Of a stretch of DNA of 64,000 nt, positions 34,371 through 54,992 are shown piece after piece. A program made the translations under genes and the position numbers. The stretch's first letter is position 1. Each line of letters starts with the position of its first letter. The notes under the pieces were generated by a model, which was not told the origin of the DNA, searched no databases, and saw only the letters and a list, made by a program, of their open reading frames with translations. The stretch comes from Sphagnum magellanicum (Eukaryota; Streptophyta; Sphagnopsida; Sphagnales; Sphagnaceae), in assembly GCA_021904315.1 (NCBI GenBank), contig CM038920.1, positions 5,146,001-5,210,000 of the forward strand, read 5' to 3'.

Positions 34371-35033
34371 ATGGGGCTCTGCAGTATGTCGCTGGACTTG
34401 CTCTTAATTCCTCGTGAGTTGCAAGTGTTTCTATCCAAGAGCGTGGTAGAAGCGAATTGCAGCATAACGCGCTTTCTCTTCTCTATCTTCTTTACGTATG
34501 GGTTCTACATTCCAGCAGCTGGTTTGTTCGTTCAATTGTTGTTTGTATCCGCAATGATGCAGGATGCGGCGGAAAGTGCAAAACTGGAAATCTGGATGAA
34601 CGCTTTCTCTTTCCTTGTTCATATGCTTCACGTGTGCGTTTTATGTTCTAGGAGCTTGTTTGTTTGTTTGGCAATTACGAAGCAGGAAGAGGAGGGAGAG
34701 GAGGATGCGGAGGAGGAAGAGGACGGAGACGAGGAAGAGGACGTGGAGGAAGAAGAGACAGAACTGGATATGGAGCTGGGCATGTTGCGGCCGATGACCG
34801 ATACCGAGATCACATATTTGGCTAAAGAACTATGGTACGCGTACACTACAAGCATGAAGATCTACTTCCGAATGATCAACCAGGAGTTGGTGTACATCGA
34901 GTTCGAGTGCTGCGTAGCCCTGCTGTGCTCTGGTGAGAAGACCCACGACGAAATGCTGCCCATAGTTACCGCTTTGTTCCAGCTCGACCACCCAGAACTG
35001 ATCGCAGGATTTCGCTTCTTCTTCGAACCCTGA
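34371..35033 (+). CDS. PAH-domain (SIN3-type) protein with hydrophobic N-terminus and acidic tract, right copy
   Basis: 220 aa, intact. Differs from the left copy by a few residues in the hydrophobic half (I41F, L54V, C56L, K63M, I85M in left numbering) and by a shorter acidic run. From the end of the acidic run to the stop the protein is identical; the three nucleotide differences I see there (CCA/CCG, CTG/CTC, ATC/ATT) are all silent. Both copies are therefore likely maintained by selection or by conversion. Same architecture and PAH signature as the left copy. The start is the first in-frame ATG after a short 5' leader. Confidence 0.75.
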   Translation: MGLCSMSLDLLLIPRELQVFLSKSVVEANCSITRFLFSIFFTYGFYIPAAGLFVQLLFVSAMMQDAAESAKLEIWMNAFSFLVHMLHVCVLCSRSLFVCLAITKQEEEGEEDAEEEEDGDEEEDVEEEETELDMELGMLRPMTDTEITYLAKELWYAYTTSMKIYFRMINQELVYIEFECCVALLCSGEKTHDEMLPIVTALFQLDHPELIAGFRFFFEP

Positions 35034-35734
35034 TCGATGGGCTCTGGGGGTGGTTTGCAAGGTACTAGTCAGACATCTTCTAATCACTTCCCAATAAACC
35101 AAATTAAGATCCAGTCCTTCAGCTTGTTGCTACATATAACTGTTGCTTATATAGTGCATCCCCGCTAGAACCCTCAAGCAGACAAATTCTGGCTATTGGT
35201 ATGACACTAGTATAGCTGTTTGTGAAAGGATTTGCTAGAGAATCATGATGCATGGGGAGCTATCATGGAGTCCATGATGTTTGATAAAGGTTTTCTTTTG
35301 TGTTGACATTTTCTGTGTATCTCTGTTGACGCAGTAACCTTGTGCACTCGTGAGGATCCGGTTGGGGTTTGGAACAGTAGTGAACTAGGGTTATCGATCC
35401 TTCTACAAGGGACCTGAATTGTGTTTTGGTATGTATGCCTTGGTTCTTACTTCGTTCTTGTTCCTTTTTACAGACAGGTCTACAAAGAAAGAGGGGAGTT
35501 TTGGGCTGGGCGCAGAGGTGCTGAATAGTAAATGGACTTGGTGAAAGTTTGGAATGCCTTCAGATATCTTGGCTTCCTTCAGGTTGTGGACACCACCATG
35601 AATTGAAACAATATCTGTTAGATTGCAGGCAATTTGTTGGGGCTTGTAAACTCACTGTCAATTGACAGTGATGCATCTTGATGATTATGCATCTTCCCTT
35701 TGTATGTCTGGTACTTTGATAGCTCATGAACAAC

Positions 35735-36205
35735 AATAACAGAATTTCCATCTTTAGCTTCTATCTGGGTGTGTTTTGCATTTTGTGGTACATGTGTTCC
35801 ATTTCAACACTGCTGCTTGCATGAACAACAATGGCAGGATTTCCATCTTCAGCTTCTTTTGGGATATGATTGCATTATGGGGTACATGTGTTCCATTTCA
35901 ACACTACTGCTTGCATGAACAACGGCAGGATTTCGATCTTCAGCTTCTTTCTTAATGTATTTTGCATTATGTGGTACATGTGTTCCATGTGTTCCATTTC
36001 AGCACTGCTGCTTACATGAACAACAATGACAGGATTTCCATCTTCAGCTTCTTTCTTCATGTGTTTTGCATTATGTGGTACATGTGTTCCATTTCAACAC
36101 CACTACTTGCATAAACAACAATGGCAGGATTTCCATCTTCAGCTTCTTTCTTGATGTGTTTTGCATTATGTACATGTGTTCCATTTCAGAACTGCTGCTT
36201 GCAGT
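35735..36205. repeat. About 95-bp minisatellite, right copy
   Basis: Inverted counterpart of 18,746-19,250 with five to six units, one of which has an extra GTTCCATGT. Unit number and order differ slightly from the left array, as expected for independently evolving tandem repeats. Confidence 0.8.
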
Positions 36206-36685
36206 TATCACTTTGAAGTATTACACATATGTTCATAGATGTTGAAGCTTTTCTGAGATTTTTTTCTTGTTTGGGTTCAGTGCCATGTTTATGTCATTTC
36301 TACCCTGTTTCAGCCCAAGCAAGCAAAACCTACACCCCTGTATCATCTTCCTAGCCCTCAAGCCTTTGACCATCTTAAAGCACATTGCTGAACAAACTAC
36401 TTGTTCAACTCAAATCCAGATGCTAAGAGGCAAGCAGTACCTAAAAGTAAACACTTCAATCTGACTTTTGTCTTGAAGAACAATTTGTACACAAAAGAGG
36501 TCACATCAAAACTGTTCAGTTGAGAAACCTCCAAGTACTCTGCCAATTTCCCTGAAAATAGTCATATTAAGCCATGATATTAGAGCTCTGTTATATGTCT
36601 GTTTCAACACATCATGTCTCTTCCCTTGTGCTGCTCATTTGGAAATTATGCATACCTGATTGTCACCAATACTGTTGCAAGCAAG

Positions 36686-37660
36686 TTACACTTGGAATTT
36701 CTCCCTCCTCACATGGTAATTAGTTGACGTCTCAGTCTTGCGTCCAATGCCTCGTCCAATGCCTTGTAGTGTTCTCTTTTGTTGCATGGGGGACTCAGTG
36801 AAACTATACCAGATTGTAATCCATTTGGTGGTAGGCTTGATGTTGCATGAGTTCTTTTTGTCCTGCAACATAAAATATAAGAACTCTGTATGGCCAGAAA
36901 ATGAAACAAGAGACTCCATCTAGAAAAAATGTTTACTCTCTTTGGATCGCTACAACAAGATTAATAAATCACTGAAATCAGTGCAACAGATATTGACTTA
37001 AGCCAAATTTGAGCAGAAACTCTGTAACTTAATTGTATGGTGGAAAACTAGATGGACTATAACTGCTGACAATCTTCATCAGCAATAAATTGGCACTCTT
37101 GAGAAACTGGATTGTCTTTTAAGCTGGTACAGCAAAGATGTACTTAAAATGTCAAACGAATCACAGAGAAATCAGAAATTAGTTTCAAGCAAGCTCCAGG
37201 TGGTGAATGAGGCATATTTCTTGGCTTATGTAAATGAGGCAATTCATAGTTAGGGTTCTTCCCCTCCATCATTGGAATACAAGAACACCAGGGATCTCTG
37301 CAGCAGTGATTTGGTGATAGGACATTTCCATATGAGGATCAGTTGGCTCTCTTGATAGTGAACTAAACTCAAGAAATTTAATCTCTCGAAAGTAGCTGGA
37401 TGGATTGTAGAAAACAAAATTCAGAAAGTGATATATGAGCACTCTCTGCAAACAAACAATGAGTCAGGTATATTAACACGTTGCTTTCTGGTAGCTTTGT
37501 GGTTCTATACATGATTTTCCCCATAGGAATGACAAGGAATGGCATCAGATTCACTATTTGAACAGAAGATCTACCAGGCTCAAGAACAATGTCCCAATGA
37601 CCCCGAGACATTGTTATAAGATCTGGAAACAACAAGGAATTAAACTCAAACATGCACTTG
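36686..37660 (-). pseudogene. Candidate two-exon gene remnant, right copy (unidentified)
   Basis: Mirror of 17,391-18,275. The second block is at about 36,688-36,862 (-), the first at 37,190-37,640 (-). Near 37,300-37,370 the right copy has a replaced segment that is not in the left, so one copy has been rearranged. Confidence 0.3.
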
Positions 37661-39410
37661 TTACTCCTTTACAGGACTTCAAGAAAATATTAGTTGGCTT
37701 TCTGTATATTACAGCACCAAAAGTGTATGAAGTGTATTACAATGTAGCTCTATAAACTCAAACTATTGAAAGTGAGATACAACAGCACATGTCAATGTGG
37801 AAGTCTTGTCATGCACAGAAAAACATCAACTAGATTTACAATTATCACAAGTGACATAGAAGACCAACATCTAAGCATGACAGGAAGAAACACAACAAAA
37901 TAATTTTCATGCACACAAGATCTCTCAGACCATAACTGGCCAATGACAGTATGTATCCAATTTTAGGAATGGAAACCAACAATAAAATGGAAGCATAGAA
38001 ACTTGGGTTCATATCTAGGAAGTATATATCTATATCATCTACTGTATATAATCCTTTGGACTGCAAGTTATGATTCATAAATCCATGACCATATGTTATA
38101 ACATGTGTTGTTACAGGTCTGTACATTACATTGGATGAAATTGAAAACAAAGAGCAATGAAAACACAAGGCCCCAAAGATTTGAATAAGACTGGTGAACT
38201 GTACACAGAAAATTAGTAGAACATGCTTTGCAAACAAGAGAAGGCAAAAGACAAAAACAGACCTGAAGTGTTACAACACCACCGACCACAACCCAAATTA
38301 TGCACAAACTACAAACACATTTTGGTACTGTATGTGGAAAGGGTGGCCTCTCTGCTGATTGAAGAATCAATTGTGGTTTTTAGGTTTGGATTGTGTGATG
38401 TAATCTGGTGTTCAAGAGATTTGAACTTTGAAGTGCTCTTATGAAGCTAAATAGCCAAGATCACCATCCTATTCTATGCTTGATTGCTTGCTAGGGTTCA
38501 CTCAAGACAGGTTTGGTTAGCAGTTCTTAAAAGTAAGCCAGTAAACAAGATGGTGTGAATGTGCAGCACACACCTATCCAAGACACAACAACCCATGTGA
38601 CAATTTAAGCAACTTTGCAAACATGATGTGAAGCAAAGTGAGAAGCACATGCTGAGTACACATAAGACTTGAAAAATAACTGAAGGACAAACTGTTACAA
38701 TGCAAATCTCAGGTCCCAAACAGAAGCTGAAATATATGCAAAATAGATCAATGTTGTTCATGAGGTTTTTTGTAAGTCCAGGTTCCCACAACTACCGGTG
38801 AAAGAAACAAAGAGATATAAACGGGTCCACAAGGAGGTAACCAATATTGATCATGTCATTCCAACTGAGTCCCCACTTGATTGATTCAAAAGAGAAATTG
38901 CTTCCATCTCATGTACTCAATGTCTTGCCTGCTGACAAAACCGAAATGCTCCCTCAAGTCTGGACTCTGTCTGACAAAAGAATGTAAAACCAATATAGAT
39001 GTGTTTGCAACAAGAATGTAAAACCAATGCAAGAAGATTGTAAAACTAATACAGATCTGAAGTGATTGCAAGTGCTTTATAGAACTCAACCTTGGTACCT
39101 TTCATTCTATTCCTGGAAACAATAAGACATAATAAGACATAAAGTGCATAAGATTGGCACAAATTCGAATGCATAAAGCAAAGAAAACAAATCAATGAGC
39201 ATGGCTTCCTTGCATAAAACCATTCCCTAATCAAAGTTTTCACAACCACCAACTTAGTCTTTGAGCACCCACTCTTCAAGATACATACCACTAAAACAAA
39301 TCATAGCATGTAAACCCCTTGTAGGTATGACCAGAAAATTAGTTGTGGTTGATAGGAAGTAAGGAAATTATGTGCACTTTCACCTTTGAAATTACCACCA
39401 CAACAGCCGA

Positions 39411-40055
39411 TCAGATCTTAAGGAAATTGCAGAACTTGTGGAGAAAGTCCCCGTGCTCGGTCTGGAGCATGGCGGCAACCGAGCATATCGCTTCATCTGC
39501 GGTCTTTTCATCCTTGCTGTGCACAGTGACGTTATGGAGGAACGCTCTGTACATACTACACATGCTCCTCGTTTCTCCCCTGGGGACTAGCCTTGATTCT
39601 GCTTACTAGGTCTTGGGCTTGATCCAACTCTTGGACTACAAGTTGATGCATTTCTTGTTGGATATAGACATCATCAGGCGCTGGACTCATTGCCCTTCTT
39701 TATGTTCAGTCCACTTTACCATCACTTGTGGTAGCTTCGTGTCCAGCGGTAGAGCGAGGCAGTTGGTCAAATTCATTAGCACCAACCATTTTTTGTCATG
39801 GATCCGCTTCGAGTACTCTTGCCTCAATCTCAGAGTTTCTGCTTACTTACAAGCTCCACCCACTGCGCAGTCTCGATGCGCTTCTCCAGGAAATCCGCGG
39901 CCCAGGTACATGATCTTTGTCTTCATAGCTTAGGCCAACTCTTGCTGCAGGGGTTCATAGAAAACCTCTAGAAATCTAGTATACTGGTCCGCGGTATCAC
40001 GATGGATCCTGAGCGGACAGGCTGGGTGGGAAAGGAGATATTGCTCATTAGCCAT
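39411..40055 (-). pseudogene. PAH-domain (SIN3-like) gene remnant, right copy
   Basis: Mirror of 15,012-15,652, with the same ATG, the same early TAA after GAGTTGGCC and the same terminal PAH-like segment. One lesion of the left copy is absent: DKKWLVLMN is open where the left has a stop. Conversely it has its own changes (a CCC codon in the first helix). Shared early lesions imply decay began before the inverted duplication, unless the shared stop marks an intron. Confidence 0.5.
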
Positions 40056-40358
40056 TTCTCTTATCTTGAGATTGTTGTTGTAGATCGAAGCTGCAATCAC
40101 GCGAACATGTAAGCTCTAGCTGAACTCCCTCCAATTGTAGACTACATGTCTGCCAGTAGACTCATGCGCAAAGATAAAGAAAATTTAAATAAGACATCTC
40201 CTAAGTTCTCTCACTCTGCCCTGCTTCCAAGTGTGAACTAGCTGCATGAACAACCGTCTAATACATCACAAAGATTCAAAGAAAAGCATAATGCAACCTT
40301 GAGCTCTAGCTCGCATCGAACTACAAAGCTAGCCAGGCGTGAAGAGTGATGCGTAGAG

Positions 40359-40649
40359 ATGATGAAGAAGATGTGTCGGGATGAATGTGAAAACGCTCTT
40401 TCATCCTATCCCATTAACTTCTGCAACACGCTAGACGGACTGATGGCCATCATCTCTGGCAACATGTGCTGCCAGGACCCATGCATGATAGAAACTGACC
40501 AAATTTTTCATCCTGGGCAGTTGTCAAACAGTACCAGTGTTTGCCGGGTATTTATTTCTTTTCATAACCATTCAGTAGTGTGTTTTTTTTTTCAATTGAG
40601 CGCTGGTCTAAAGGTTATTATTTTTTGGGTAAATAACCTTTGGTTATAA
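40359..40649 (+). other. Conserved exon-like ORF, right copy (unidentified)
   Basis: Counterpart of 14,451-14,708. Open for 97 codons, but the last third reads through T-rich sequence and is unlikely to be coding. No domain recognised. Confidence 0.25.
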
Positions 40650-41984
40650 ATAAGGGTAGGTTATCAAATAATTGATTAATAGACATCAGTTATCTTATTG
40701 GTTATTAGCCAAATATGGGGTTATTTTGATTTTTGATTTCATCTTTTGTATTTATATTTTATATTATAAACATGCTTAACATTTTGAGATTGATAACCTA
40801 CCTGGATTAGAACCATGCCATCTGGGTAGGTTATTAAAATTTGAAAAATCAATACAAAGTGGTTAGGTTATTAACTAGATATCCACAAAGCCAAAGAACT
40901 GAATGATAGGTTATCACTACTTGGGTTGACAACCGGGCCAAAACTCAATAACCGGCCAACACTGGGAGATACCCCATCAAAGGAGGGAGCCACCCTTACC
41001 CCTGCTAGCTACAAAAGGAAGACGCCTACCACAAAAACATTTTGGGTTTCATCTGCTGAAGGACAAAAATTTGTCCACTGTATTTTTCATCAGGGTAGTA
41101 ATTTCTATTTCTTAACAGTTAGTTGCTGCAGTTCTCATTGGGATATTTATGTTTTACAAAACAAAGTATTGACTACTCTAAACACATTGAGCTTTTTATG
41201 CAATTCTATGTTATCCTAGAAGAAAGATTTAAGGGTACTGGGCCGAGTTGCAAAATTTCACAAAAAAAAATCATTGGCCTGGACTCTTGGCTTTATATGA
41301 AAGAACCCGAAGCAGGGAGGGGGGGGAAGCAAGGACCCCTTTACTGATGATTACATTAAAAAAACCAGGGCAGAAGGACGTTCCTCCTAGTGGGGTCCTC
41401 TTTCCTACCAAATATATGATTCTATATGAAACTCTTTGTTGGTTCCCAAAAGAGTTTTCAAAACTAATATCAAGAACCCAGTTAGGAAGAACATCATCTT
41501 GGTGAGAAAACTAACTCCACACAAAAGTGTTATGCCAAAACAGAATATTCCATTTTCAGCAAAGTGTGTCGCCTTTTGGGGATTATTTGCAAAAAGAAAA
41601 GAAAAGAAAAGACTGGCGTCTACCTCTATAAGATATATCCTGTTCACTGTTCTTTTAGAAAAAAAAATTTGTACACAAAGTGGCTATCATCCATAGGAAG
41701 ATGTAAAAAAGGTGGTGATCATCCCTATGAAGATTTAGCCAAATCTGGCTATATATCAGATATAAAGTACAAATGTTTAACCATTCTTTCTTTTTTTTGG
41801 CTACATGATAAAAACGAAATGTATGAATCTGGTAATTTATACTTTTTCTTGTTTTGGCAACTGAAAACTTTGAAAATCATTTCTTTTTCGAATTTAGGCA
41901 AAATTTTGCCAGTAAAAGCAATGCTGAGATTTCCATTGTGTGTGCCTACCACAACTAGCATGCATGATAGGTCGGTCATCTACA

Positions 41985-42635
41985 TGGTATTGAATAAGTA
42001 TTGATTTTAAATATGACCTCCAGGCTCCTACCCATAACAACAAAATTGGAGTGGAAAGCACTTGGAAAAGGACAAAATAGGGGATGTATCAATGGATGGT
42101 TAGATCATAATATTTATAAATATTTCCTTGTGCCTACTTTATGCTATAAATCATGGGGCATGAGCTCCATGGCTCATAAGCTCCATCCTGTCCAATGGAC
42201 TGACCAACAAAGCAAGTGAGAATTGGCTGTTGGTGGCTAGAAGTTGTGCAGAACTAACTTGGACCAAAATGAGAGCCTAAACACTCTGCTCAATTCCCAT
42301 ATGCAAGTGTTTTTATTGTGATGGCTGTCCAAATGACAGCCCAAACTTTCATCATTGAACCCAACTCAAAGAGAGATGGGAGAGAATATTTGCCCACTTG
42401 AGAATTGTTAACACATTATTTGCAGCCATGGTGCTCTTAGAACTTAGCTGTGTCAAAAATTTGCCACTTGACCTAATAAATGAATCCTCTACTCCCCTTC
42501 ACATCTTAGCAGCGGTCAATAAGAGTTTGAGCTCATTAAAGGCCTAAACAAGCATGTCAAACTTAGCCAAAAATCTACTTGGGCATCCTGAGAATCTTAG
42601 TGGTAATGCTGGGAATTTTTTTATTTTCTGATTTG
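41985..42635. other. Near-identical patch shared by both arms, right copy
   Basis: Inverted counterpart of 12,440-13,100. The 72-codon ORF is at 42,001-42,219 (+). No domain recognised. Confidence 0.5.
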
Positions 42636-44891: not shown

Positions 44892-45468
44892 TGCAACATT
44901 GATAATTGTAATGGAATAGTTGGATAACACTATATTAGTCATTTGGTAGGCAAAGAGAGAAAGAAAAAGAGAAAAGGGGGGTGAGGAGGTTTGAAACATG
45001 CTCTGTTGGTTGGCAGAAATGTAACAACACAAGCTCCTTCCAGCAACATCAAAAATAACACTAGTAGTAACTTGCACTCCCTCCGACAGTAGCAACACCA
45101 GTAGAAACAACTCAAGAACTCAAAGGCACAAGAAATCTACCACTTTCAACATGAAGCAATAGAAATTAAAGTTTTTCTAAAATTGAATTGCAAAGAAAAA
45201 AGATCATGAAATGTATGTAGACGGTGGCTGTGCAATGGTTGCCATGAACATCTAGAAATCCTATCTGATTATGGAGGAAACTCTCCTGACAAAAGAATTT
45301 TAGAAAAACTAAAAAGAGAAAAGAAGGGCTTGGCCTTTTATACAACTACCAACAAACTGAAACCCTAAGTACCTAATAACGTATAATCACCTAAGACCGT
45401 ACATTAACCTTAAAAGCACACATGGGCATGCCCGTAACTGGCCATCATGTATGAGGCCATGTACGGGC
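44892..45468 (-). mobile_element. Solo-LTR-like element, right copy (5'-truncated)
   Basis: Inverted counterpart of 8,502-9,078. The AATG flank (reverse of CATT) is intact at 44,888-44,891. At the other edge a deletion has removed the first bases of the element and about 45 bp of neighbouring minisatellite. The TATA box (minus strand, near 45,337) is kept. Confidence 0.65.
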
Positions 45469-45474
45469 AAAACA

Positions 45475-45861
45475 ATCAAGGACGACAAGGAGCTGAGATC
45501 GAAAGTCGTCATCTTCAACACTTGAGGAAAAAAGGCAGGAAATGACAATGAACCTTCCGATTTGTTGTTATCTTCTACACCTAAAGAAAATATGTAGAAA
45601 ACGACAATGAATTGGGAAGTTCATTGTTGTTTTTTACAACTAAAGCAAAACAACCAAGGACAATGATGAGTTAAGATCCTAGCTTGTCGTCGTTTTTTAT
45701 AATTGAAGAAAAAAATGCAAAAGACAACAATGAGCCAAGAGGTTCATTGTCATCTTACGTAGCTAAAGAAAAACAACCAAGGATGACAACAAACCGGGAT
45801 CTCGACTCATTGTCATCTTCTCCAACTGAGGAAAAAAACACTAAAAGATGATGATGAACTG
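45475..45861. repeat. About 60-bp minisatellite, right copy (part 1)
   Basis: Inverted counterpart of part of 7,590-8,498, interrupted by the gypsy element. It resumes at 54,993. Confidence 0.75.
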
Positions 45862-45906
45862 GGAGTGTCATGCCCGTATGCACGGCCTCATGCATGATGG
45901 CCGGGT

Positions 45907-45920
45907 ACGGGCATGCCCGT
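45907..45920. promoter_or_regulatory. 14-bp perfect palindrome in the LTR-like segment
   Basis: ACGGGCATGCCCGT is self-complementary, about 95 bp upstream of the TATA box. A half copy (ATGCCCGT) lies at 45,869-45,876. A close version occurs in the solo-LTR-like element near 8,543. Possible transcription-factor site (inference). Confidence 0.35.
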
Positions 45921-46014
45921 CATATCTTTTAAGGTTATTGTACAGTTGTAAGGTTAGGAACGTTCTTAAGTGACTGTGCGCTATTAGGTTTAGGGTTTCA
46001 GCTTTTGGTGGCTG

Positions 46015-46023
46015 TATAAAAGG
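46015..46023 (+). promoter_or_regulatory. TATA box of the gypsy element
   Basis: TATAAAAGG, as in the solo-LTR-like copy at 8,634-8,642. Transcription would be expected to start about 30 bp downstream, giving a leader of about 1.3 kb before the gag ATG. Confidence 0.7.
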
Positions 46024-46479
46024 GCCAAGCCCTTCCCTTATCCTTTAGTTTTTCTAGAATTCCTTTGTATGAGAGTTGCCTCCATAGTTCACTTGGATTT
46101 TCTAGATGCTCACGGTGGTTACTGCACGGCCACCATCTACATACACCTTCACTACTTCTTTGCAATTCATTTCAATTCTAGAAAAACTCTATTTCCTGTT
46201 GCTTCATGTTGAAAGCAACAGATTTTTTGCACTTTTGAAGTTCTTGAGTTGTTACTACTGGTGTGGTGTTGTTGTTGCTGGAAGGAGCGCAAGGAGAGAG
46301 CGCAAGTTGCTACTACTGTTGCTGCGAAAGAGAGCTTTCGTGTTACATTCAAGCCAACCAACAGAGCCGGGAAACAGGTCTCGAAGCCCTGTCTCTTTTC
46401 TCTCTGTCTTGCTTTTGTTCTCTCTTTGAAACAGTCGAGTAAAAAAAAAAAAAAAAACAAAAATTATGGCTGCCTGCCA

Positions 46480-46930
46480 TCGCTACAGAGCAGCGTAGGG
46501 CCGCCTGCCTTTGCCACGAGCACTGGCCGCCGCGCCATCGCGTTGCTCTTCGCCGTTGCTGCGAGCTTGCAACAGCGCCGCAGCGCTACCACGACGCTTG
46601 CTTCAGCGTCGCAACGACGCAAGCTGAAACAGCGCCGCAGCGTTGTTGCAACGCCTGTTGCAACACTGCCGCAGTAACGCGAGCTGCAGCAGCGTTGCTA
46701 CAACGCCTGCTACAACCGCGTCGTTGCGCTCTCGCGACTGGTGCTACAGCAACAACGTCGCAACGCTGCCGCAACGAGAGCTGCAGAAACAGTGTCGCAG
46801 CTCTCTCGCGACGCGTGTTGCAACAGCGCCGCCGCGTTGCGCGACGCGAGCTGCAGCAACGCGAGCTTGCATCACTGCAGTGCAGCGCCGCTGCCCGCCA
46901 TCGCCGCAGCGGCGGTGAAGCTCTACACGT
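46480..46930 (+). repeat. CpG-rich degenerate repeat in the retrotransposon leader
   Basis: Units like CAGCGCCGCAGCG, TTGCAACGCC and CGAGCTGCAGCAACG recur throughout. CpG density is extreme compared with the surrounding AT-rich DNA. All three plus frames and the minus frames are largely open (for example 46,586-47,140 minus), an effect of composition rather than coding. Confidence 0.7.
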
Positions 46931-46944
46931 CCAACGTAAGTTAG

Positions 46945-47205
46945 ACTTCCGTCCGTGGGACTTCCGTCCACGGACTTCTGTCCGTCGGATGACTTCCGTC
47001 CACGGACAACTTTCGTCCGTTGGACGACTTTCGTCCACGGACAACTTCCGTCCGTCGGACGACTTCCGTCCATCGGTCCTGTCGTCATGTCCTGCACCCT
47101 GACGTCCTACGTCCTGTTGTCCTGCCGTCCTGTCCTGCACCCTGACGTCTTACATCCTGTTGTCCTGTCGTCCTACGTCCTGCCATCTACGTCCTACCTT
47201 TTCAT
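46945..47205 (+). repeat. CGTCCGTCGGACGAC-type tandem repeats in the leader
   Basis: CTTCCGTCCACGGACTTCCG-like units repeat at about 15-32 bp spacing to about 47,080, many with internal dyads (TCCGTCGGA, GTCCACGGAC). They are followed by CCTGACGTCCTACGTCCTG-type units to about 47,205. The dyads could fold into hairpins in the RNA leader. No tRNA primer-binding site was recognised. Confidence 0.65.
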
Positions 47206-47351
47206 CCAACATCTATTTGACTTCCGTGCAATATTTGTGTGTCACGGGTCACTCCCAACAGCGCACTTTATTCTTCAAATTATACGTTGTGTTAGGATTT
47301 TGTAGTTAGTGTTATGTACTATCACAACATTTTAGGGCATGGGACAACACC

Positions 47352-48005
47352 ATGTCCTCGGATGATGAGAGCACTACCGTTAGACCAGAGCCCAGGTATC
47401 AGCTACAAAGTAACACACAATCTTTTGAGCCAATTTCTTTAAGCTCGCGAGCATCACGACGATACCATCAAGCGTCTACAGCACCATCGTTGTCTAGTAC
47501 AACTCCTACCAGGAACTCAGGCTCAGGTTACACTACATCAACAGTACATCAAAGTCCATTTGGAGGGGCTCATCAGTGGACTACGCCTGTTGTTGCACCT
47601 ACTTTCGCACCATCACCGTATACTCCATTGCAAGCTGTGACTTCAGCACCCATATACACTATGGAGGTGAGGAGTTCTTCTGGGAGAATTGAGAAGTTCA
47701 GCGGAAGGCCAGGTACTATTTCTTTGAGGGAGTTCAAGGCAACCTTCTCAACTTTGGTTTGTGAATTGGAGCTCAAGTATGGCGCTAATTACACCGAGGC
47801 GTTTGCATTCAAACAATTGGCTCGTTATGTGCATTATGAGGCACTGGATGTCTACGAACAACATTCTGCAAGGATTTTGGGTGTCACCCAGATTCCCAAT
47901 CCAGCTTACGCCATGGCCATTGCCACTGCCTCTCAAGCTGCATTGCAAGCTGTAATTGCACATCACGGGACTGTGCCGAATAATCCAGACCCAGTACCTA
48001 CCTAA
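47352..48005 (+). CDS. Gag N-terminal part (Ty3/gypsy)
   Basis: 217 residues. The first 100 are Ser/Thr/Pro-rich and disordered. From about residue 108 a structured capsid-like region begins (GRIEKFSGRPGTISLREFKA), typical of plant Ty3/gypsy gag start regions. The frame continues past the TAA with protein-like sequence, so this is a truncated piece rather than a complete product. Confidence 0.8.
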   Translation: MSSDDESTTVRPEPRYQLQSNTQSFEPISLSSRASRRYHQASTAPSLSSTTPTRNSGSGYTTSTVHQSPFGGAHQWTTPVVAPTFAPSPYTPLQAVTSAPIYTMEVRSSSGRIEKFSGRPGTISLREFKATFSTLVCELELKYGANYTEAFAFKQLARYVHYEALDVYEQHSARILGVTQIPNPAYAMAIATASQAALQAVIAHHGTVPNNPDPVPT

Positions 48006-48086
48006 GTAAACCTTTCTCCTCAACAACTCATTGCTGCTACTGCAAACATTCCTCCCACAACTGATGCGCCAGCTTTTGCTGATCCA

Positions 48087-48443
48087 GTGGGGGAATTCTT
48101 CCGAATTCTTGAACTAGAATTTCCAGTCAAAAGTTCCGAAAAAATTCTGCAACTCGCCACTTTCTCTCGGCAGAAGGATGAAACCCTCAAGATGCTTTAC
48201 AGGAGGCTTCTCAAACTCAAAGAGGATACCCAGAGCATCACCGACTTGGAAGCTGCCCACCGGTATCTTCGTTCTTTGGAAGGTACCCCAACACTCCATG
48301 CACAGGTTTTGCAACGAGTCTTTGCAGAATTTGGAGACTCGTACACTTTGCTGGATGTGTACAACATTTCCGAAAAGTTGGAACTGGCTCATGCACATTA
48401 TGAGGCCAGCACTATGAGGCCTCCATCACGTTCAAGGCCTTAA
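48087..48443 (+). CDS. Gag capsid part (retrotransposon gag domain)
   Basis: The open frame after the first stop really begins at 48,006; the ATG here is internal. LQLATFSRQKDETLKMLYRR and the following Leu-rich helices match the retrotransposon gag pattern (a block with F-x-R-x-x-E-T, then a LYRRLLKLKE-type helix). Ends at the TAA at 48,441, after which the frame continues into the nucleocapsid. Confidence 0.8.
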   Translation: MGEFFRILELEFPVKSSEKILQLATFSRQKDETLKMLYRRLLKLKEDTQSITDLEAAHRYLRSLEGTPTLHAQVLQRVFAEFGDSYTLLDVYNISEKLELAHAHYEASTMRPPSRSRP

Positions 48444-48497
48444 CCTACACAAGCTGCGCCAACTAGATCATCACATTCTTCTTCAAGGACTAAAGCG

Positions 48498-49868
48498 GTG
48501 CACACGGCTACACCCATCCTACCTTCTTGCAACTACTGTGGCAATCCTGCCCACAAAGCTAGTGAGTGCAACATTCCTTCTGAAGATCTCTTTTGTGATT
48601 ATTGTGGAAAAGAAGGACATCAGGAATCTGTCTGTTTTGCCAAGTTCCCAGAGCGGAAGCAACTTCGATTACAATGGCAAAATCTACCAGCATCTTCCGC
48701 TATCCCTCAACCAAAAGCCAAGGGACCTCAGCCTTCCACTCAGGCTTTGCCCACCAAGGGTAATTCCAACAAGAATGCTAAGAAGAAGGAGCACAATGCT
48801 GACAAGAGGGAGGTGCTTCAAGCCCATGCAATTCAAGTTCAGACTTTACAAAATGAACTCGAATCATTGAGGGCTCAACTTGCTAATCTAAAAGGCAAGT
48901 CTTCCCAACCAGCTGGTCATGCCCAACCTGTACAAGATTCAGGATCACGAGAGGGACCTCCTAGGTCGTTCTATGGCCTTCCACACGATGCCATGGTTGG
49001 GGAGTACGTTCTTTCCACTCCACACAATTCTAGTCTCACACCAGAATTTGCTACTTCTTTCTGCCCTTCCTACGTCGCAGCACAAGAAGCTAGTGTGGCA
49101 CCCAGAGTTTCTGCCACCAGGCAGGTAATTCAGACTGATGGACTTGCATCTGGTTCAAGTCCTCGTACCAGGGCTAGGGGAGCTCGAGCAGTCATGCCAC
49201 AATCTTTTCGTCCTCTCAACATGGAAGAAGAACGCACCTTGTTGGCGAGGGGGGAGGACACTACTATACCACAAGTTGTTAGGGCATCAAATTCTCGTGT
49301 CCCAGGAGTACATGTACATCAGGAAAACACACAATTTTCCACTAATCAACTTATGGAATGCCAACTTCAAATGCATGAAGTGGCGCAAAAGCTTGTGAGT
49401 ACACCATTGTTTAGTTTTCAAGATTTGAAGCTAAGCACCAAGGACATAATTGCAATCTTAGAGGATACCTTGAACATTACATCAGGTCCTTTACCAATCC
49501 TTGATCCACATGCTACAGAGGTCCCATCCAACAGCTTGGAAAGACATTCGATTGGCTCACATGTTGTAGATGGCGTTCGTAATCTGGTCACTAGTTCTAG
49601 CATGGCTAAACTAGTAGGCTTTCCTACCTCTGGTTTTACATTCACATATCAGAAGGGAGTTCAAAACACCTCACTTGTGGATTTGTTACTCAGCAAAGGT
49701 GTTGTGGATAGCCATGCTCTCCACAAAGTCTCTCATTCATTTCCGAAGGTGGTGCCTAGTGAGAGAACTTCCATCGCCACTGGAGTTACCATTGTCGACA
49801 ATACTGGGTCAGCAATCCAAGTGGGAGGACATACACCTAGAGTGGTACTTCTTGACACAGGTGCCTAA
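48498..49868 (+). CDS. Gag nucleocapsid (two CCHC knuckles), linker and protease start
   Basis: 456 residues. Two CX2CX4HX4C zinc knuckles sit at 48,528-48,569 (CNYCGNPAHKASEC) and 48,594-48,635 (CDYCGKEGHQESVC); they bind the element's RNA. A Lys-rich helix with heptad-like Leu follows (residues 110-135), then a long variable linker. The segment ends in the protease active-site motif VVLLDTGA, immediately before the TAA at 49,866. Confidence 0.85.
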   Translation: MHTATPILPSCNYCGNPAHKASECNIPSEDLFCDYCGKEGHQESVCFAKFPERKQLRLQWQNLPASSAIPQPKAKGPQPSTQALPTKGNSNKNAKKKEHNADKREVLQAHAIQVQTLQNELESLRAQLANLKGKSSQPAGHAQPVQDSGSREGPPRSFYGLPHDAMVGEYVLSTPHNSSLTPEFATSFCPSYVAAQEASVAPRVSATRQVIQTDGLASGSSPRTRARGARAVMPQSFRPLNMEEERTLLARGEDTTIPQVVRASNSRVPGVHVHQENTQFSTNQLMECQLQMHEVAQKLVSTPLFSFQDLKLSTKDIIAILEDTLNITSGPLPILDPHATEVPSNSLERHSIGSHVVDGVRNLVTSSSMAKLVGFPTSGFTFTYQKGVQNTSLVDLLLSKGVVDSHALHKVSHSFPKVVPSERTSIATGVTIVDNTGSAIQVGGHTPRVVLLDTGA

Positions 49869-49871
49869 CCA

Positions 49872-52800
49872 GTGATTCTTGGAGTTCAATTCGCCAAGAA
49901 GATGGGCATGCTTGACTCCAAACTACGGAAATCTATGTGGCAGATTTGCACCGCTAGTGGGAGCATAGAGGAGGTACTTGGGGAAAGCTCAGATTTGATT
50001 GCACTTAAGTTCAATGAAGGTACCAATCAGGAGCTTTGCTTACAGGTCAGATGTTTAGTCACCAATGCCACAAGTTATGATGTGCTCATTGGGCAAGAAG
50101 CCCTGTTTCCACCAGGTTTCACAATTGACAACTGGTTTGAACATGCGTACTACAGAGTGGATTGGGAAACTGATGGCCACCACTTGGGATACATACCCCT
50201 TGATTTACATGGGAACCATAGTCCTATGGCTCACCATTGCATGCTCAAGGAAGCACACACCATTTCCTACATCCAACAAGCTAGCCACGAATGGATAGAG
50301 GGAGATGAGGAGGAGATAGCTTACGTTCAAGCTACTAAAAGCTTGAAGGTGGTTCCTACTGACATCCAACATGGACCAGAGGTTTTACAAAGGTTCAAAG
50401 TAGCCCACAAGCCCTTGGTCAAAACTTTGTCTAGTTTTGAAAGTATGGAGAGCCATGGCGAACCGATTAAGCCATTACTTCGTCAGCTCATCACCTGGAC
50501 ACCACCTAAGGAAGGGATTACATTACTAGAGCTCTTTGGTGGTATTAGTACAGGTCTCGAAGCCCTACTACAGTCAGGGATGGTGGTTCGGAGGTATTTC
50601 TACGTAGACATTGATCCTATTGCAAGGCAAGTGGCGGCATCAAGAATGAGAGAATTCACAACAAGATTTCCGCAACAATTTGCAACTACCGCATGGAAGG
50701 CTAGTTTCACATTTTTGCCCTCTGACATACAACTAATTCAGAAGAAGCATATGGAATTACTTGGCCCTGTCGACCTCATCATTTCAGGTTGGGAGTGTCA
50801 AGGATTTTCAGCGGCTGGATTTGGAGAAGGCTTGAATGACACAAGATCTGGTCTTTTCACGGACATGGTACGATTGATCACTTGGGCTCAATCCATTTCT
50901 CCTACACTTGGGTATGTAATTGAGAACACTCCTTCTCAGCTTGATCAGAGGGAGAAAGTCCAGGAGCACTACACACTGGTCAAGCATTACCTTGGAGAGC
51001 CGCTCTTACTTGATGCGGCACAATGTGGTTCCTATGCGCACCGGCTGCGCAATTGGTGGACCAATTTGGCACCACTCTCAGTTCTACAGCTAGCTCTGAA
51101 ATACACTATCAGAGACCCCAACCTGCAGGTTTCTCACATATTGGATGATCAAAGTTCTTGCCAACCAGTTACAAGGCAAGAAAAACCTCCTTGGTTTCCT
51201 GCGAACACAATGGGAAAACCAAGAGGTGCTTGGCCCACCTTTGTCTCCTTCCCAGGAGCGCACGCCTTTCAGGGAGATGGGCCAGGCCTGGTGTATCGTC
51301 ATGCTTCAGCCACTTGGGATGAACCAAGCCCAGAAGAAAGAGAGAGGGCTATGGGGTTCCAAGCTGGCACTACTAGTCACACCAAGGTGACTAGATTGGA
51401 GCGTAATGCTCTACTAGGGAGAGGCATGGACCTGAACTCCCTTACATGGTTGTTGGTAACTTGTGTACTCTTTCAAATGTACATAACACCAACACTGACT
51501 CAATCAACTTGTAGTTCTAGTGATGCAACCACATGGCACCCCGACCAAGTACACTTGCCTATCTTCAACACTCTACATTTCACTCTCAGTGTTGGGGGGG
51601 AGGAGGTACCATGTAATTTGACTCAAGTTGTGTCTGATACACCTGGAGGTGCATCAGCTTCTGGAGAAACAATTACAACCTTCTACGAATCTACGCAGTT
51701 GGATAGTGGAGAACCCAATACACCAGGTTCTTCAAACACACTTTCCAACTCCATTCCATGTGTTTCCAACTACCCTTTCGTTATGGGGAACCAGCTCACC
51801 AAGAAGGAGAGAGACCAAGTCACAAACTTGCTAATTAAGTATGAGAATGTGTTTGCATTCTCAATGAAAGACTTAGGTAGGTGTAAGACCATGCAGTTCT
51901 CTATAAACCTTACAGATGAGACACCTGTCTATCGAAGGAGGCATAGGTTGAGCAAACATGAATGGGAACTGGTAGATGAAAGATGCAAAGAGCTCCATGA
52001 GGCCGGTCTCATTCAGCCATCAAGTTCTGATTTCGCAACCGTTACAGTAATGCCAGCAAAGAAAGATTCAGCTGGATTATGGACCGAGAAAAGGATGTGC
52101 GGGGATTATAGGCCTTTGAATCTAGTTACACCGCAGGATAGGTACCCCATGCCCATCCCTGAAGAATTGTTTGATAGCATTGGAGATTCAAACATCTTCA
52201 CAATTGTGGATCTGAGGCAAGGTTTCAACCAAATTGTGCTCGCTGAGAAGGATCGCAAGAAAACAGCATTCCATGGAAGCAACAAGTTATGGGAATGGCT
52301 TGTGATGCCTTTTGGATTGAAGAATGCACCTGTCTTCTTTCAACGAGTCATGGACCAGGTTCTCGAAGGGGCAGATTTCCTGAAGTGCTACATAGATGAC
52401 GTCCTGGTGCATAGCAAGGGACTCCTGCAACATTTGGTTCATCTCGAGGAGTTATTCAAGAGGCTCCATGAAGTCAATATGAAGATCCATCCTAAAAAGT
52501 GTGAGTTTGTTGTCACCTCAGTAATCTACCTTGGACATAGAATTTTGCCAAATGGTATTATGGCTCATTGGGCCAAAGTAGTAGCCATTTTGGAGATGCC
52601 CAATCCTACTGATGTTCACACGTTGAGGAGCTTCATTGGACTATGCAATTACTACAGAATTTATGTCCAAGATTTTAGTACTATTGCTCATCCTCTCTAT
52701 GCATTGTTAAAGAAGGATGTTGCTTGGACATGGAGTGATGAAGCTCAAGAAGCTTTCAACACACTCAAGGAAAAGCTTTCAGAGTTCCCCATTCTGAGAA

Positions 52801-53492
52801 GACCTGATTTCAACAAGGTTTTCATTCTACACACTGACTGGAGTGCTCTTGGTATTGGAGCTATTCTTGGCCAACTTGATGAGGAAGGCAAGGAATATGT
52901 TATCGCCTATGCATCTCGAAGCAACAACAAGGTTGAGAGCAACTACTCTTCATATGAGGGAGAGTGCCTTGCTGTTGTATGGGCCGTCATACATTTCAGG
53001 CCCTATCTTTATGGCACCAATTTCACTTTGTATACCGACCACCAGCCTATCAAGTGGTTGATGACCAATGATAAGCTTACTAGTAAGTTAGCTCGTTGGG
53101 CACTTATACTTCAAGAGTATGAGTTCAAGGTTATTCACCGACTTGGTATTACACATCAGAATGCGGATACCATGTCACGAAGACCCCTCACTACCTCTGA
53201 GGATTTTTCAAAAGCCAGGCAAGATTTTGACCAGATTCCAGGAGTACCTGTATCTGAGGCATCTAGTTATCTTGCACTATTGCAATGCAACTTGGTTGAG
53301 CAGCCCATTCTCGATATATGGGAGGACTTGGACACTCTGAGGTTTCTTCAACATGGGGAATACCCTCCCCAAGTTACGTCAAGTCAACGAGATCGCATAC
53401 AACAGCGGTCCAAACGCTATTCATGGAGGGACAATCACCTCGTCCGATGCTTACCACAAGGCGACAGAGTGGTTCCACCACCACATGAATGA
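49872..53492 (+). CDS. Pol: protease remainder, DNMT3-like DNA methyltransferase, reverse transcriptase, RNase H
   Basis: 1,206 residues. Residues 1-90 finish the aspartic protease (DVLIGQEAL). Residues 212-535 are a cytosine-5 methyltransferase: motif I LLELFGGISTGLEAL (217-231), a motif II-like FYVDIDPIA, motif IV GPVDLIISGWECQGFS with the candidate catalytic Cys309, motif VI YVIENTP with Glu351, motif VIII HRLRNWW, and C-terminal ERERAMGF and LLGRGMDLNSL. The LFGGISTG and LLGR signatures and the linear motif order resemble DNMT3/DRM more than CMT or MET1. Residue 308, before the Cys, is Glu where Pro is usual. Residues 680-945 are reverse transcriptase with YIDD at 840-843; RNase H follows with Asp989, the GECLAVVWA Glu and TDHQPIKWL. 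Confidence 0.92.
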   Translation: MILGVQFAKKMGMLDSKLRKSMWQICTASGSIEEVLGESSDLIALKFNEGTNQELCLQVRCLVTNATSYDVLIGQEALFPPGFTIDNWFEHAYYRVDWETDGHHLGYIPLDLHGNHSPMAHHCMLKEAHTISYIQQASHEWIEGDEEEIAYVQATKSLKVVPTDIQHGPEVLQRFKVAHKPLVKTLSSFESMESHGEPIKPLLRQLITWTPPKEGITLLELFGGISTGLEALLQSGMVVRRYFYVDIDPIARQVAASRMREFTTRFPQQFATTAWKASFTFLPSDIQLIQKKHMELLGPVDLIISGWECQGFSAAGFGEGLNDTRSGLFTDMVRLITWAQSISPTLGYVIENTPSQLDQREKVQEHYTLVKHYLGEPLLLDAAQCGSYAHRLRNWWTNLAPLSVLQLALKYTIRDPNLQVSHILDDQSSCQPVTRQEKPPWFPANTMGKPRGAWPTFVSFPGAHAFQGDGPGLVYRHASATWDEPSPEERERAMGFQAGTTSHTKVTRLERNALLGRGMDLNSLTWLLVTCVLFQMYITPTLTQSTCSSSDATTWHPDQVHLPIFNTLHFTLSVGGEEVPCNLTQVVSDTPGGASASGETITTFYESTQLDSGEPNTPGSSNTLSNSIPCVSNYPFVMGNQLTKKERDQVTNLLIKYENVFAFSMKDLGRCKTMQFSINLTDETPVYRRRHRLSKHEWELVDERCKELHEAGLIQPSSSDFATVTVMPAKKDSAGLWTEKRMCGDYRPLNLVTPQDRYPMPIPEELFDSIGDSNIFTIVDLRQGFNQIVLAEKDRKKTAFHGSNKLWEWLVMPFGLKNAPVFFQRVMDQVLEGADFLKCYIDDVLVHSKGLLQHLVHLEELFKRLHEVNMKIHPKKCEFVVTSVIYLGHRILPNGIMAHWAKVVAILEMPNPTDVHTLRSFIGLCNYYRIYVQDFSTIAHPLYALLKKDVAWTWSDEAQEAFNTLKEKLSEFPILRRPDFNKVFILHTDWSALGIGAILGQLDEEGKEYVIAYASRSNNKVESNYSSYEGECLAVVWAVIHFRPYLYGTNFTLYTDHQPIKWLMTNDKLTSKLARWALILQEYEFKVIHRLGITHQNADTMSRRPLTTSEDFSKARQDFDQIPGVPVSEASSYLALLQCNLVEQPILDIWEDLDTLRFLQHGEYPPQVTSSQRDRIQQRSKRYSWRDNHLVRCLPQGDRVVPPPHE
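50500..51480 (+). other. Cytosine-5 DNA methyltransferase domain inside pol
   Basis: This entry marks the captured domain. It replaces what is normally a short protease-RT spacer, so it would be made as part of the polyprotein and possibly released by the protease. The captured piece has only the catalytic core, without the PWWP or ADD modules of host DNMT3 enzymes or the UBA domains of DRM. Retrotransposons with captured cytosine methyltransferases have been reported in dinoflagellates and charophyte algae, so the principle has precedent. Presence in this element family and genome is what the sequence shows. Confidence 0.9.
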
Positions 53493-53585
53493 CATGGTCT
53501 TATTCAAAAAGTACACTCGGAGCTTGGACACTTTGGAGTTAAGCGTACTTACAGCCTTCTCGTTCCTCATTACCATTGGAGAGGT

Positions 53586-54761
53586 ATGTATGCTCAAGTC
53601 CGAGACATCATTGCTAGGTGCGAACAATGTGATAGAGTGAGAACTTCTTTTTCCTCTCGACAGCTCACACTTTCTCCACTCCCTATTCAGGGCATGTTCT
53701 ATCGTTGGTCATGTGATTTAGCTGGAGAGTTACCACAAACCTCTAGGGGTAATGTTTACATCATGATTATGATTGAGCATTTTTCAAAGTGGGTTGAGCT
53801 TGTTGCGTTACCAGACAAATCATCACACAGCACCAGCCAGGCTTTCTTACAACAAGTTTTAAGTAGATTTGGGGCTTGTGCTGAGTGCCTTACTGATCAA
53901 GGATCAGAATTCAGGGGAGAATTCAAAGACCTACTTGACCATGCTCTCATTGACCATCGTCGAATTTCAAGAGATCATCCCCAAGCTGATGGCCTTGCAG
54001 AAAGGATGGTTCAAACGCGCAAGAAAGGATTTCGGAAGATTTGCCTCACTAAGAACAAAGAGGATTGGGACCTGGCCCTCCCTTACATCGCCATGGGTTA
54101 CAGGATGTCCAAACACGCCTCTTTATCTCATTTCTCTCCTTACTTTTTACTTTTTGGGAGGCACCCCATTCCACCCTCTTCCATTACTGCTCAAATGGAC
54201 CAGGTTGTGGATTTGGATTCCCCAGCCACTTGGGCTAGGGTCATTGCAGAAAGGGCTGCTCTATTCAGGAGGGTTATGCCCATGGCCATGGAAAACTTGT
54301 CCATTGCACAACATCGAGACACCTTACGGTATGCACACACACGAGGTGGTAGTTACAAACCTAAGGTGAGACAATTTGATGTTGGTGATTTTGTGTATCT
54401 TCAGCGACAACCCACTGACACTTTAGACACTTCTTCTGGTCGCACTATTTTGAGGATTAAGGCAATCAGGCCTTCAGGTGTGTTGGAGCTACAAAGAGCT
54501 GACGGACGCACAATTCGGGATCATTCCAAAAATTGTGCGCCTTGCCACCTACCAAACTTGGACCCTACCATCATCACGTCGACTTGGATTCCTCCACTTG
54601 ATTATCCATGTCAGGTATGTCAGAGGACGGACGATGCTAATCAGATGCTGCTTTGCGACAATTGTAATGGTGGATACCATCTCTTTTGCCTCAAGCCGGA
54701 ACTCACTCAAGTTCCTGCCGGCAATTGGTACTGTTTATCATGCTCTCCTACAGCACCTTGA
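53586..54761 (+). CDS. Integrase with C-terminal PHD finger
   Basis: The open frame starts at 53,493, just after the TGA; the ATG here is internal. The zinc-binding module is HSELGHFG (His pair) with CEQC. The catalytic core has WSCDLAG (Asp), LTDQGSEF (Asp) and QADGLAERM (Glu), the DDE triad that joins cDNA to the target. An SH3-like C-terminal region follows (VGDFVYLQRQ). The last 50 residues form a C4HC3 PHD finger (CQVC, CDNC, YHLFC, GNWYCLSC). The usual plant chromovirus chromodomain is absent. Ends at TGA 54,759. Confidence 0.92.
   Translation: MYAQVRDIIARCEQCDRVRTSFSSRQLTLSPLPIQGMFYRWSCDLAGELPQTSRGNVYIMIMIEHFSKWVELVALPDKSSHSTSQAFLQQVLSRFGACAECLTDQGSEFRGEFKDLLDHALIDHRRISRDHPQADGLAERMVQTRKKGFRKICLTKNKEDWDLALPYIAMGYRMSKHASLSHFSPYFLLFGRHPIPPSSITAQMDQVVDLDSPATWARVIAERAALFRRVMPMAMENLSIAQHRDTLRYAHTRGGSYKPKVRQFDVGDFVYLQRQPTDTLDTSSGRTILRIKAIRPSGVLELQRADGRTIRDHSKNCAPCHLPNLDPTIITSTWIPPLDYPCQVCQRTDDANQMLLCDNCNGGYHLFCLKPELTQVPAGNWYCLSCSPTAP
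54609..54743 (+). other. PHD finger fused to integrase
   Basis: Spacing C-X2-C-X11-C-X2-C-X4-H-X2-C-X14-C-X2-C, with the diagnostic Trp two residues before the seventh ligand and the CLKPELTQVP loop typical of PHDs. PHD fingers read the histone H3 tail. No Trp is seen at the CDxC-xxW position common in H3K4me3 binders, and acidic DD precedes MLLCD. This looks more like readers of unmodified H3K4 (inference from motif comparison). It could steer integration or bring the methyltransferase to chosen chromatin. Confidence 0.88.
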
Positions 54762-54802
54762 TTCCTACTCAGACCATGCCACGCTTTTCCTGGCTCAGGT
54801 CT

Positions 54803-54811
54803 GGGGGGGAA
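54803..54811 (+). promoter_or_regulatory. Candidate polypurine tract
   Basis: GGGGGGGAA, 42 bp after the stop codon. It is in the place where the plus-strand primer of reverse transcription lies in Ty3/gypsy elements, just before the 3' LTR. No LTR-like TGTCATG follows it directly. Confidence 0.5.
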
Positions 54812-54963
54812 TACATGAGAATTTCATCTCAGCCTCCCTTGTGCTTTGTGTATATATGTGTGTGCATGCATCTCTTTTTAGTTGATTAGTTTCTACCTTT
54901 AATTGGTTTTAGGCTGTTTGTTTAGTAGAGTTTCCTACGGATTCACACCTTTACGACACTGTA

Positions 54964-54988
54964 TGTCACGACACTACACGTCACGACA
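54964..54988 (+). repeat. Possible 25-bp stub of a 3' LTR
   Basis: TGTCACGACACTACACGTCACGACA starts like the element's 5' end (TGTCATG) and ends with its complement (CACGACA), next to the GGAG duplication. It could be an LTR with nearly all of its interior deleted. Alternatively the 3' end belongs to a different family. A loosely similar GTGTGTCACGGGTCACTCCC lies at 47,237-47,256. Confidence 0.35.
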
Positions 54989-54992
54989 GGAG

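Follow-up and report, generated by a model that had tools for sequence, protein, structure and literature searches.

The question raised by this locus is whether a land-plant retrotransposon carries a cytosine methyltransferase of its own and, if so, what such an enzyme would do for the element. The window, the whole stretch of 64,000 nucleotides that was analyzed, contains one copy of a Ty3/gypsy-type retrotransposon of Sphagnum magellanicum (peat moss) at 45866-54988. The first-pass annotation had placed a DNMT3-like cytosine-5 methyltransferase inside the pol of this element. This proposal was borne out: the domain gave a significant profile match and is located in frame between the protease (PR) and the reverse transcriptase (RT). 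Taking all parts together, we consider it probable that the element represents a recently active, multi-copy, gypsy-type family of the moss with a DNMT3 that keeps its catalytic residues, and that its life cycle would include self-priming, a circular cDNA and methylation ahead of insertion.

Limits and layout of the window copy

The segment 44001-56296 is an inverted duplicate of 11071-6246, the main pieces being 88-94% identical, and the element is present in the first of the two only. The empty site in the inverted duplicate therefore sets the limits of the element at 45866-54988 and identifies a 4-bp target-site duplication (TSD), GGAG. The features are as follows.

45866-54988, + strand: whole retrotransposon copy, short form A1...B, 9123 bp, ends TGTC...GACA (element-free site in the inverted paralogous segment; matching ends in other copies across the genome)
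45862-45865, no strand: TSD GGAG, left copy (empty-site comparison and reading of the termini)
54989-54992, no strand: TSD GGAG, right copy (empty-site comparison and reading of the termini)
45866-46176, + strand: repeat A (A1, 311 bp), which holds the TATA box; A2 lies near the right end in long-form copies
46015-46022, + strand: TATA box TATAAAAG (sequence motif; putative function)
46047-46058, + strand: predicted RNA 5' end AGTTTTTCTAGA, 32 bp past the TATA-box start (complementary to the primer-binding site; putative start site)
46177-46188, + strand: primer-binding-site-like TCTAGAAAAACT, directly 3' of repeat A (perfect 12-nt complement of the predicted RNA 5' end; putative Tf1-like self-priming)
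47352-54761, + strand: single frame Gag-PR-DNMT-RT-RH-IN-PHD, with in-frame stops at 48003, 48441, 49866 and 53490
48498-48677, + strand: Gag zinc knuckles, two, CCHC-like (sequence motif; relatives matched as local query; no Pfam family for the ORF)
49746-50201, + strand: aspartic protease region, LDTGA, interrupted by a stop (local query; no Pfam match in the window; relatives with PF13650/PF13975)
50484-51482, + strand: DNMT3-type cytosine-5 methyltransferase domain (profile match and motif order)
50796-50798, + strand: codon of the catalytic Cys of motif IV (WECQG)
51849-52583, + strand: reverse transcriptase (Pfam RVT_1, 2e-29; local query)
52725-53141, + strand: RNase H (RH; Pfam RT_RNaseH, 2.1e-38; local query)
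53595-54257, + strand: DDE integrase (IN) core (Pfam rve, 2.4e-12; local query)
54597-54743, + strand: PHD finger at the integrase C-terminus (Pfam PHD, 2.2e-12; PDB PHD matches)
54803-54810, + strand: polypurine-tract-like G run, directly 5' of repeat B (sequence motif; putative function)
54811-54988, + strand: repeat B, 178 bp, right end of the element
8063-8068, - strand: empty site, the element-free position in the paralogous segment 11071-6246

The window copy is dead, since the four in-frame stops allow no full protein. Open frames of up to 2379 aa that span the DNMT were found in other copies of the family.

The leader between repeat A and Gag (46177-47351) showed GC-rich short repeats, with a CpG observed/expected ratio of 1.22 against 0.39 in the coding frame. 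An older remnant akin to the left end of the element (73%) was found at 8502-9078 and, in the inverted duplicate, near 45000-45480. By eye, this remnant is flanked by CATT on both sides, and the young copy lies about 390 bp away, head to head. A large inverted duplication is also apparent by eye, from paired ORFs, between 14000-21000 and 34000-42000; it includes two copies of a 220-224 aa ORF (19933-20607 on the minus strand and 34371-35033 on the plus strand). Outside the element, tRNA, Rfam and Pfam scans of the window (the last on ten ORFs) yielded nothing informative about the host.

The methyltransferase domain, its moss copies and its relatives

The best profile match of the window domain was DNMT3A (89.8 bits, among the best 60 of 69 matches). 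Other scores were 67.7 bits for 4onj, which we take to be tobacco DRM, 59.0 bits for entries named DRM2, 46.3 bits for HhaI, 39.5 bits for a DNMT2-type protein and 11.0 bits for DNMT1. No CMT appeared among these best 60 of 69 matches. Motifs I to X of the window domain are in the canonical, non-permuted order, whereas the DRM-like exons of the host itself (L002 and L005) show a permuted order. A DRM identity was rejected on the basis of the profile scores and this difference; DNMT1-type, DNMT2 and bacterial origins were likewise rejected by profile scores and motif order. Judged from its sequence, the captured domain is a DNMT3, not a DRM.

The moss genome (438,994,042 bases in 31 contigs) was searched with the DNMT protein as a query. 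At least 121 copies of the domain were found at 79-100% identity (122 rows with E <= 0.001, two of which are pieces of one copy), the count being a lower bound because the best 121 of 1087 first-look candidates were scored. The possibility of a one-off chimera was thus discarded. By eye, ten of the matching rows, including that of the window, run through DNMT residues 1-333 without an internal stop. A second Sphagnum family (L001, L003 and L004) is about 42% identical and has PCQ in motif IV.

Selection was analyzed in two sets of copies. In the window copy and ten others chosen for long open frames, a choice that favors stop-free frames, pooled pN/pS was 0.18 for DNMT (55 pairs), 0.27 for RT, 0.33 for RNase H and 0.24 for PR; the linkers on either side of the DNMT gave 0.18 (before) and 0.69 (after). 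In the second set, the window copy and the 29 best-scoring other copies, DNMT variants were sorted by the number of copies sharing them. Variants found in three or more of the 30 copies comprised 39 synonymous, 19 nonsynonymous and 4 stop changes (pN/pS 0.15), those found in two copies 19, 28 and 3 (0.45), and those private to one copy 26, 97 and 9 (1.14). The difference between the first and the last class was highly significant (Fisher test, 5.5e-9). The contrast between shared and private variants had the same direction without being significant in RT (0.26 vs 0.54, p 0.13), in PR (29 copies, p 0.22) and in the linker before the DNMT (p 0.25); in the linker after the DNMT, p was 0.045. Since shared variants are constrained and private ones are not, purifying selection acts on the DNMT as long as the lineage is mobile, and inserted copies then decay. 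Of the two observations that the first-pass annotation named as refuting it, a missing profile match and a domain absent from every other copy, neither was made. Among the private DNMT changes, 94 of 132 were C>T or G>A, and 84 of these 94 lay outside CG, a pattern that CH methylation of silenced copies would produce, among other possible causes.

We infer that the element-encoded DNMT is an active enzyme, and that it methylates the cDNA or the insertion site of the element itself. The catalytic Cys, the motif VI Glu and the R-x-R are all present in the window domain. Among the aligned element domains, window included, the catalytic Cys was found in 101 of 102 and the motif VI Glu in 103 of 103. 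In most C5-methyltransferases, the Cys of motif IV is preceded by Pro. In its place, the window (50793-50798) and all 30 moss copies examined have Glu-Cys, and of the 102 aligned element domains, window included, 63 have Pro and 37 have Glu at this position. On a quick tree made with this column masked, seven changes between Glu and Pro were needed, and at least three were forced by supported branches. The repeated replacement would fit a catalytically idle DNMT that acts as a structural part of Pol or binds nucleic acids within it. We regard an idle DNMT as unlikely, however, because all 30 moss copies retain the catalytic Cys, the motif VI Glu and a motif I Gly, and 27 of them the second R-x-R arginine, because constraint on the DNMT is at least equal to that on RT, and because relatives with PCQ have the same architecture. 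It could also be supposed that the DNMT acts on the host, by silencing its defences or rival elements or by protecting it against DNA viruses, and not on the cDNA of the element. Speculation on retrotransposon methylases in the available part of PMC6338049 and the host effects discussed for Symbiodinium in that of PMC5890265 are in line with this view. The moss DNMT is nevertheless coded in the Gag-Pol frame, so that it would most likely be confined to the particle, and the window copy has no separate ORF for it; an action on the host thus seems to us improbable. An active DNMT that would methylate the cDNA or insertion site of its own element is the reading followed below.

Three protein searches matched 48, 133 (best 120 listed) and 1141 (best 120 listed) proteins. 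After two of them, a DNMT domain was present in 143 of 161 sequences (160 database proteins and the window). The matches of the second search included Sphagnum proteins, namely P0121 of S. magellanicum (88%), P0136 of S. balticum (89%) and P0142 of S. troendelagicum (87%). The named hosts with a DNMT domain were Marchantia, Calypogeia, Sphagnum, Closterium, Chromochloris (from the record tag), Haematococcus, Monoraphidium, Pleodorina and Volvox. Among the matches listed, Klebsormidium nitens and Chara gave RT matches only, arthropods gave RT without DNMT, and no vascular plant was named, the last of which is not proof of absence. One query against viral contigs found no relative. One element-type DNMT (P0069) is filed under a Candidatus Obscuribacterales MAG and is probably plant or algal contamination of the bin.

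The DNMT tree, the bootstrap of which had not settled, contained 103 element domains (at least 80% covered) and human DNMT3A, which is on a very long branch. In this tree, the 33 rows with DNMT after RNase H or before the integrase formed one clade (99/98), which also takes in six unscored rows and P0043 (Haematococcus); P0043 was scored as upstream, possibly through a gene-model effect. The other 37 upstream rows lay outside this clade. In the algal clade the DNMT is thus between RNase H and the integrase, and in the moss element between PR and RT. The RT tree (120 rows, after nine multi-RT proteins were dropped) placed all 43 rows whose protein also carries a DNMT inside one 90-row clade (100/99), and 20 of the 21 rows that were scored by rule as DNMT-less outside it. 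The 24 downstream-DNMT rows again formed one clade (99/99). P0023, scored as upstream, was a long-branched sister of the downstream clade, contrary to the DNMT tree. A tree without cellular plant DNMT3s is compatible both with a single capture followed by a move of the domain and with two separate captures. The two places of the DNMT in Pol, almost cleanly split on the tree, offer a natural comparison for the use of a captured domain. In many relatives, the coding sequence is split: the first ORF closes with the DNMT, and the next one begins a short way upstream of RT; DNMT and RT therefore need not share one polyprotein everywhere.

Four algal-type relatives (P0019, P0020, P0038 and P0039) showed by eye a second methyltransferase-like segment (DPFAGSG-like ... 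SPPF-like) in their C-termini after the PHD. In P0019, Pfam D12 was below the cut-off (E 0.0035), and D12 was absent from the listing for the other three. Some algal relatives may, on this faint resemblance, carry both a C5 and an amino methyltransferase.

Termini and a proposed life cycle

In the window copy, no ordinary direct LTRs were found by repeat search, BLAST or local alignment against shuffles, and the last 219 bp were no closer to the first 1835 bp than shuffles were. The last 289 bp of the element were found at 40 places (the best 40 of 771 first-look candidates), namely the window and 39 others at 89-99% identity, and the final base of the element was reached in 38 of the 40. The ends were examined in 11 copies, the window copy and the ten picked for long open frames. 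A perfect 4-bp TSD was found in ten of them outside the ends TGTC...GACA (AACA in one), C7a being the exception. Five copies (C15a, C15b, C20a, C6a and C8a) had the long form A1-ORF-B1-GC-A2-B2, with the TSDs outside the whole unit in all five, and five (the window copy, C17a, C8b, C8c and C7a) had the short form, which ends at B. None of the 11 showed A-B at both ends in direct orientation. PR-RT-RH-IN order with a DDE integrase, a TSD in the range of 4-6 bp and TG...CA ends, all found here, are features of Ty3/gypsy. The A-coding-B-A-B arrangement of the DIRS type was found in 5 of the 11 copies; the tyrosine recombinase and the lack of a TSD of that type were not, the integrase being of the rve family and a 4-bp TSD being present in 10 of 11.

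In copy C10a (L027 and L028), BLAST coordinates placed the internal part in inverted orientation relative to the ends, with an overlap of about 5 bp at one breakpoint. Its target duplication, AATT, is intact, and the copy looks like a case of autointegration before insertion.

In the long forms, the A1/A2 and B1/B2 pairs together showed 0 to 8 differences, with single gap columns at some A-pair slice ends. In C8a the two A repeats (310 aligned bases with a single gap column) are free of mismatches, as are the two B repeats (178), and the insertion of this copy is therefore recent. With many copies in the moss, at least one of them very young, the question of why an element should carry a transposon-silencing enzyme becomes directly testable.

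A genome-wide search that allowed up to three mismatches gave 129 B-GC-A junctions, against none for the reversed-pattern control, and 146 A|B junctions, against two for the control. Among 100 places of each junction, at least 39 pairs lay 285-338 bp apart in the right order; the remaining junctions may be further pairs, or solo or decayed ends. At G000:C4:3308678 and 3309166, two B-GC-A junctions lie on the same strand at a distance of 488 bp and thereby form a tandem of terminal units, the product that a multi-unit circle or a concatemer would give.

The position of the A|B junction matches that predicted from the primer-binding and G-run sites. The genomic ends fall within the LTR predicted from the primer sites, an arrangement suggestive of integration from circular cDNA. 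The RNA would start in repeat A (AGTTT), and the minus strand would be self-primed on the site after A, as in Tf1, where the 5' end of the RNA itself serves as the primer of the minus strand. Plus strands begun at the G run would give a cDNA with an "LTR" of B-GC-A, 491 bp, and the ends of the cDNA units would join at A|B to form circles. The integrase would then cut the internal palindrome GACA-GC-TGTC and insert a permuted copy; a one-unit circle opened at the palindrome would yield the short form A1...B, and a two-unit circle the long form A1...B1-GC-A2-B2. Methylation of the cDNA by the DNMT borne in the particle would precede or accompany insertion, which the PHD finger would steer by reading histone H3. 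The element would arrive already marked and pass as host DNA, or its copies would be quiet enough to be tolerated. In this account the domain order, the copy number, the selection on the DNMT, the 4-bp TSDs and the A-ORF-B-A-B arrangement of the long forms are direct observations. Integration from a circle was once proposed for retroviruses and then dropped; the combination of A-B-A-B ends and integrase-type TSDs is relevant to the question of whether any retroelement integrates in this way.

It is worth considering that the A-B-A-B arrangement might be a by-product of recombination between ordinary LTRs, or of tandem insertion, and not of circular integration. Nested and inverted copies do exist (C10a, 1 of 11; the window copy lies beside an older remnant). 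There is little room for this explanation, however, since the junctions number 129 and 146 genome-wide, the TSDs lie outside the entire unit in all five long forms, and direct A-B at both ends was seen in 0 of 11 copies. Two facts do speak against integration from a circle: 1 of the 11 copies has no matching TSD, and 5 of the 11 have no A2-B2. The latter could also be explained if the short forms arose by recombination between B1 and B2 after insertion, and not by insertion of a one-unit circle. The direct repeats B1 and B2 measure 178 bp each and lie 491 bp apart, and the product would look identical. Short forms, on the other hand, make up 5 of the 11 copies, many for repeats so short, which is a weak argument against the recombination model; we give this model nearly even chances. 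For the long forms, integration from circular cDNA remains our preferred explanation.

The nearest solved PHD fingers include those of KMT2D, CHD4, WSTF, ATXR5, KDM5, BAZ2A/B, KAT6A, UHRF1, AIRE and PHF21A. Several of these read unmodified H3K4, and the ADD domain of animal DNMT3 reads the same mark. As a guess from this resemblance, the moss polyprotein may rebuild the pairing of an H3K4 reader with DNMT3. We tentatively extend the reading to a green-lineage clade of DDE-integrase retrotransposons that ranges from green algae to liverworts and mosses and has the DNMT in either of two places in Pol. Such elements would integrate from circular cDNA at an internal palindrome (GACAGCTGTC in the moss family) rather than from linear LTR ends, carry a DNMT3 and an H3-reading PHD finger, and have their copies methylated in advance; this extension is possible but somewhat doubtful.

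Comparison with known systems

One primary report of DNMT-bearing Gypsy elements was found in the full-text literature (de Mendoza et al. 2018, PMC5890265). According to its available text, KnitGypsy-Dnmt3 of Klebsormidium nitens has Gypsy domains and a non-rearranged Dnmt3 in the Pol ORF, with Ka/Ks under 0.2 on the DNMT, and the legend of Fig. 4 gives the K. nitens element a DIRS repeat structure with Gypsy domains, the DIRS arrangement being described there as A-coding-B-A-B. Together with SymbioDIRS-Dnmt3 in the same text, this agrees with the earlier statement that retrotransposons with captured DNMTs are known from dinoflagellates and charophytes. The available part of PMC12344493 cites earlier reports of element DNMTs from streptophytes and dinoflagellates, and that of PMC6338049 describes transposon methylases as absent from land plants. 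Element DNMTs are not mentioned in the available parts of PMC9985172, PMC9033089, PMC10952607 and PMC5784723; PMC12440569 concerns another lineage, and a term search of its available part gave no match. In the full-text literature, a scope outside which preprints, most subscription papers and supplements fall, no report of DNMT-bearing elements of land plants was found. The suggestion that a land-plant host would make this an undescribed lineage is upheld to that extent, but the same kind of element has been described from a charophyte. The element-borne DNMT3s of liverworts and Sphagnum are contrary to one published account and left out of another.

KnitGypsy-Dnmt3 is the closest described element. 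The moss family likewise has Gypsy domains, Dnmt3 in Pol, DIRS-like repeats and purifying selection, as far as the available text of PMC5890265 describes its counterpart, and the K. nitens proteins P0180, P0209 and P0233 fall in the 90-row RT clade of the window, a likeness that is of RT only on the K. nitens side. It differs in its land-plant host. The available text of PMC5890265 does not mention a PHD finger, a 4-bp TSD, a self-priming site or permuted ends for KnitGypsy-Dnmt3, and some of these may prove shared. The SymbioDIRS-Dnmt3 elements of dinoflagellates, in the same available text, are alike in Dnmt3 in Pol, the A-coding-B-A-B arrangement and purifying selection; they use a tyrosine recombinase, in contrast to the DDE integrase and 4-bp TSDs of the moss element.

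With Ty3/gypsy elements (Metaviridae), the moss element shares the Gag-PR-RT-RH-IN order, the DDE integrase, the TG...CA ends, the 4-bp TSD and the polypurine tract; it differs in lacking direct LTRs and in the DNMT between PR and RT. Its PHD finger is located where chromoviruses have a chromodomain. In Tf1 of fission yeast, as predicted for the moss element, the RNA 5' end is complementary to a site just past the LTR, which fits self-primed reverse transcription. Tf1 has ordinary LTRs and a chromodomain, unlike the moss element. The domain itself resembles DNMT3A/B in canonical motif order, sequence and fold, a comparison made with animal DNMT3 only; from animal and bryophyte DNMT3 it differs by ECQ in motif IV and by its place in a polyprotein. 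Relative to the described elements, the moss family stands apart by its host, a land plant, by its PHD finger and by its permuted, TSD-flanked ends; the Klebsormidium element may share the latter two.
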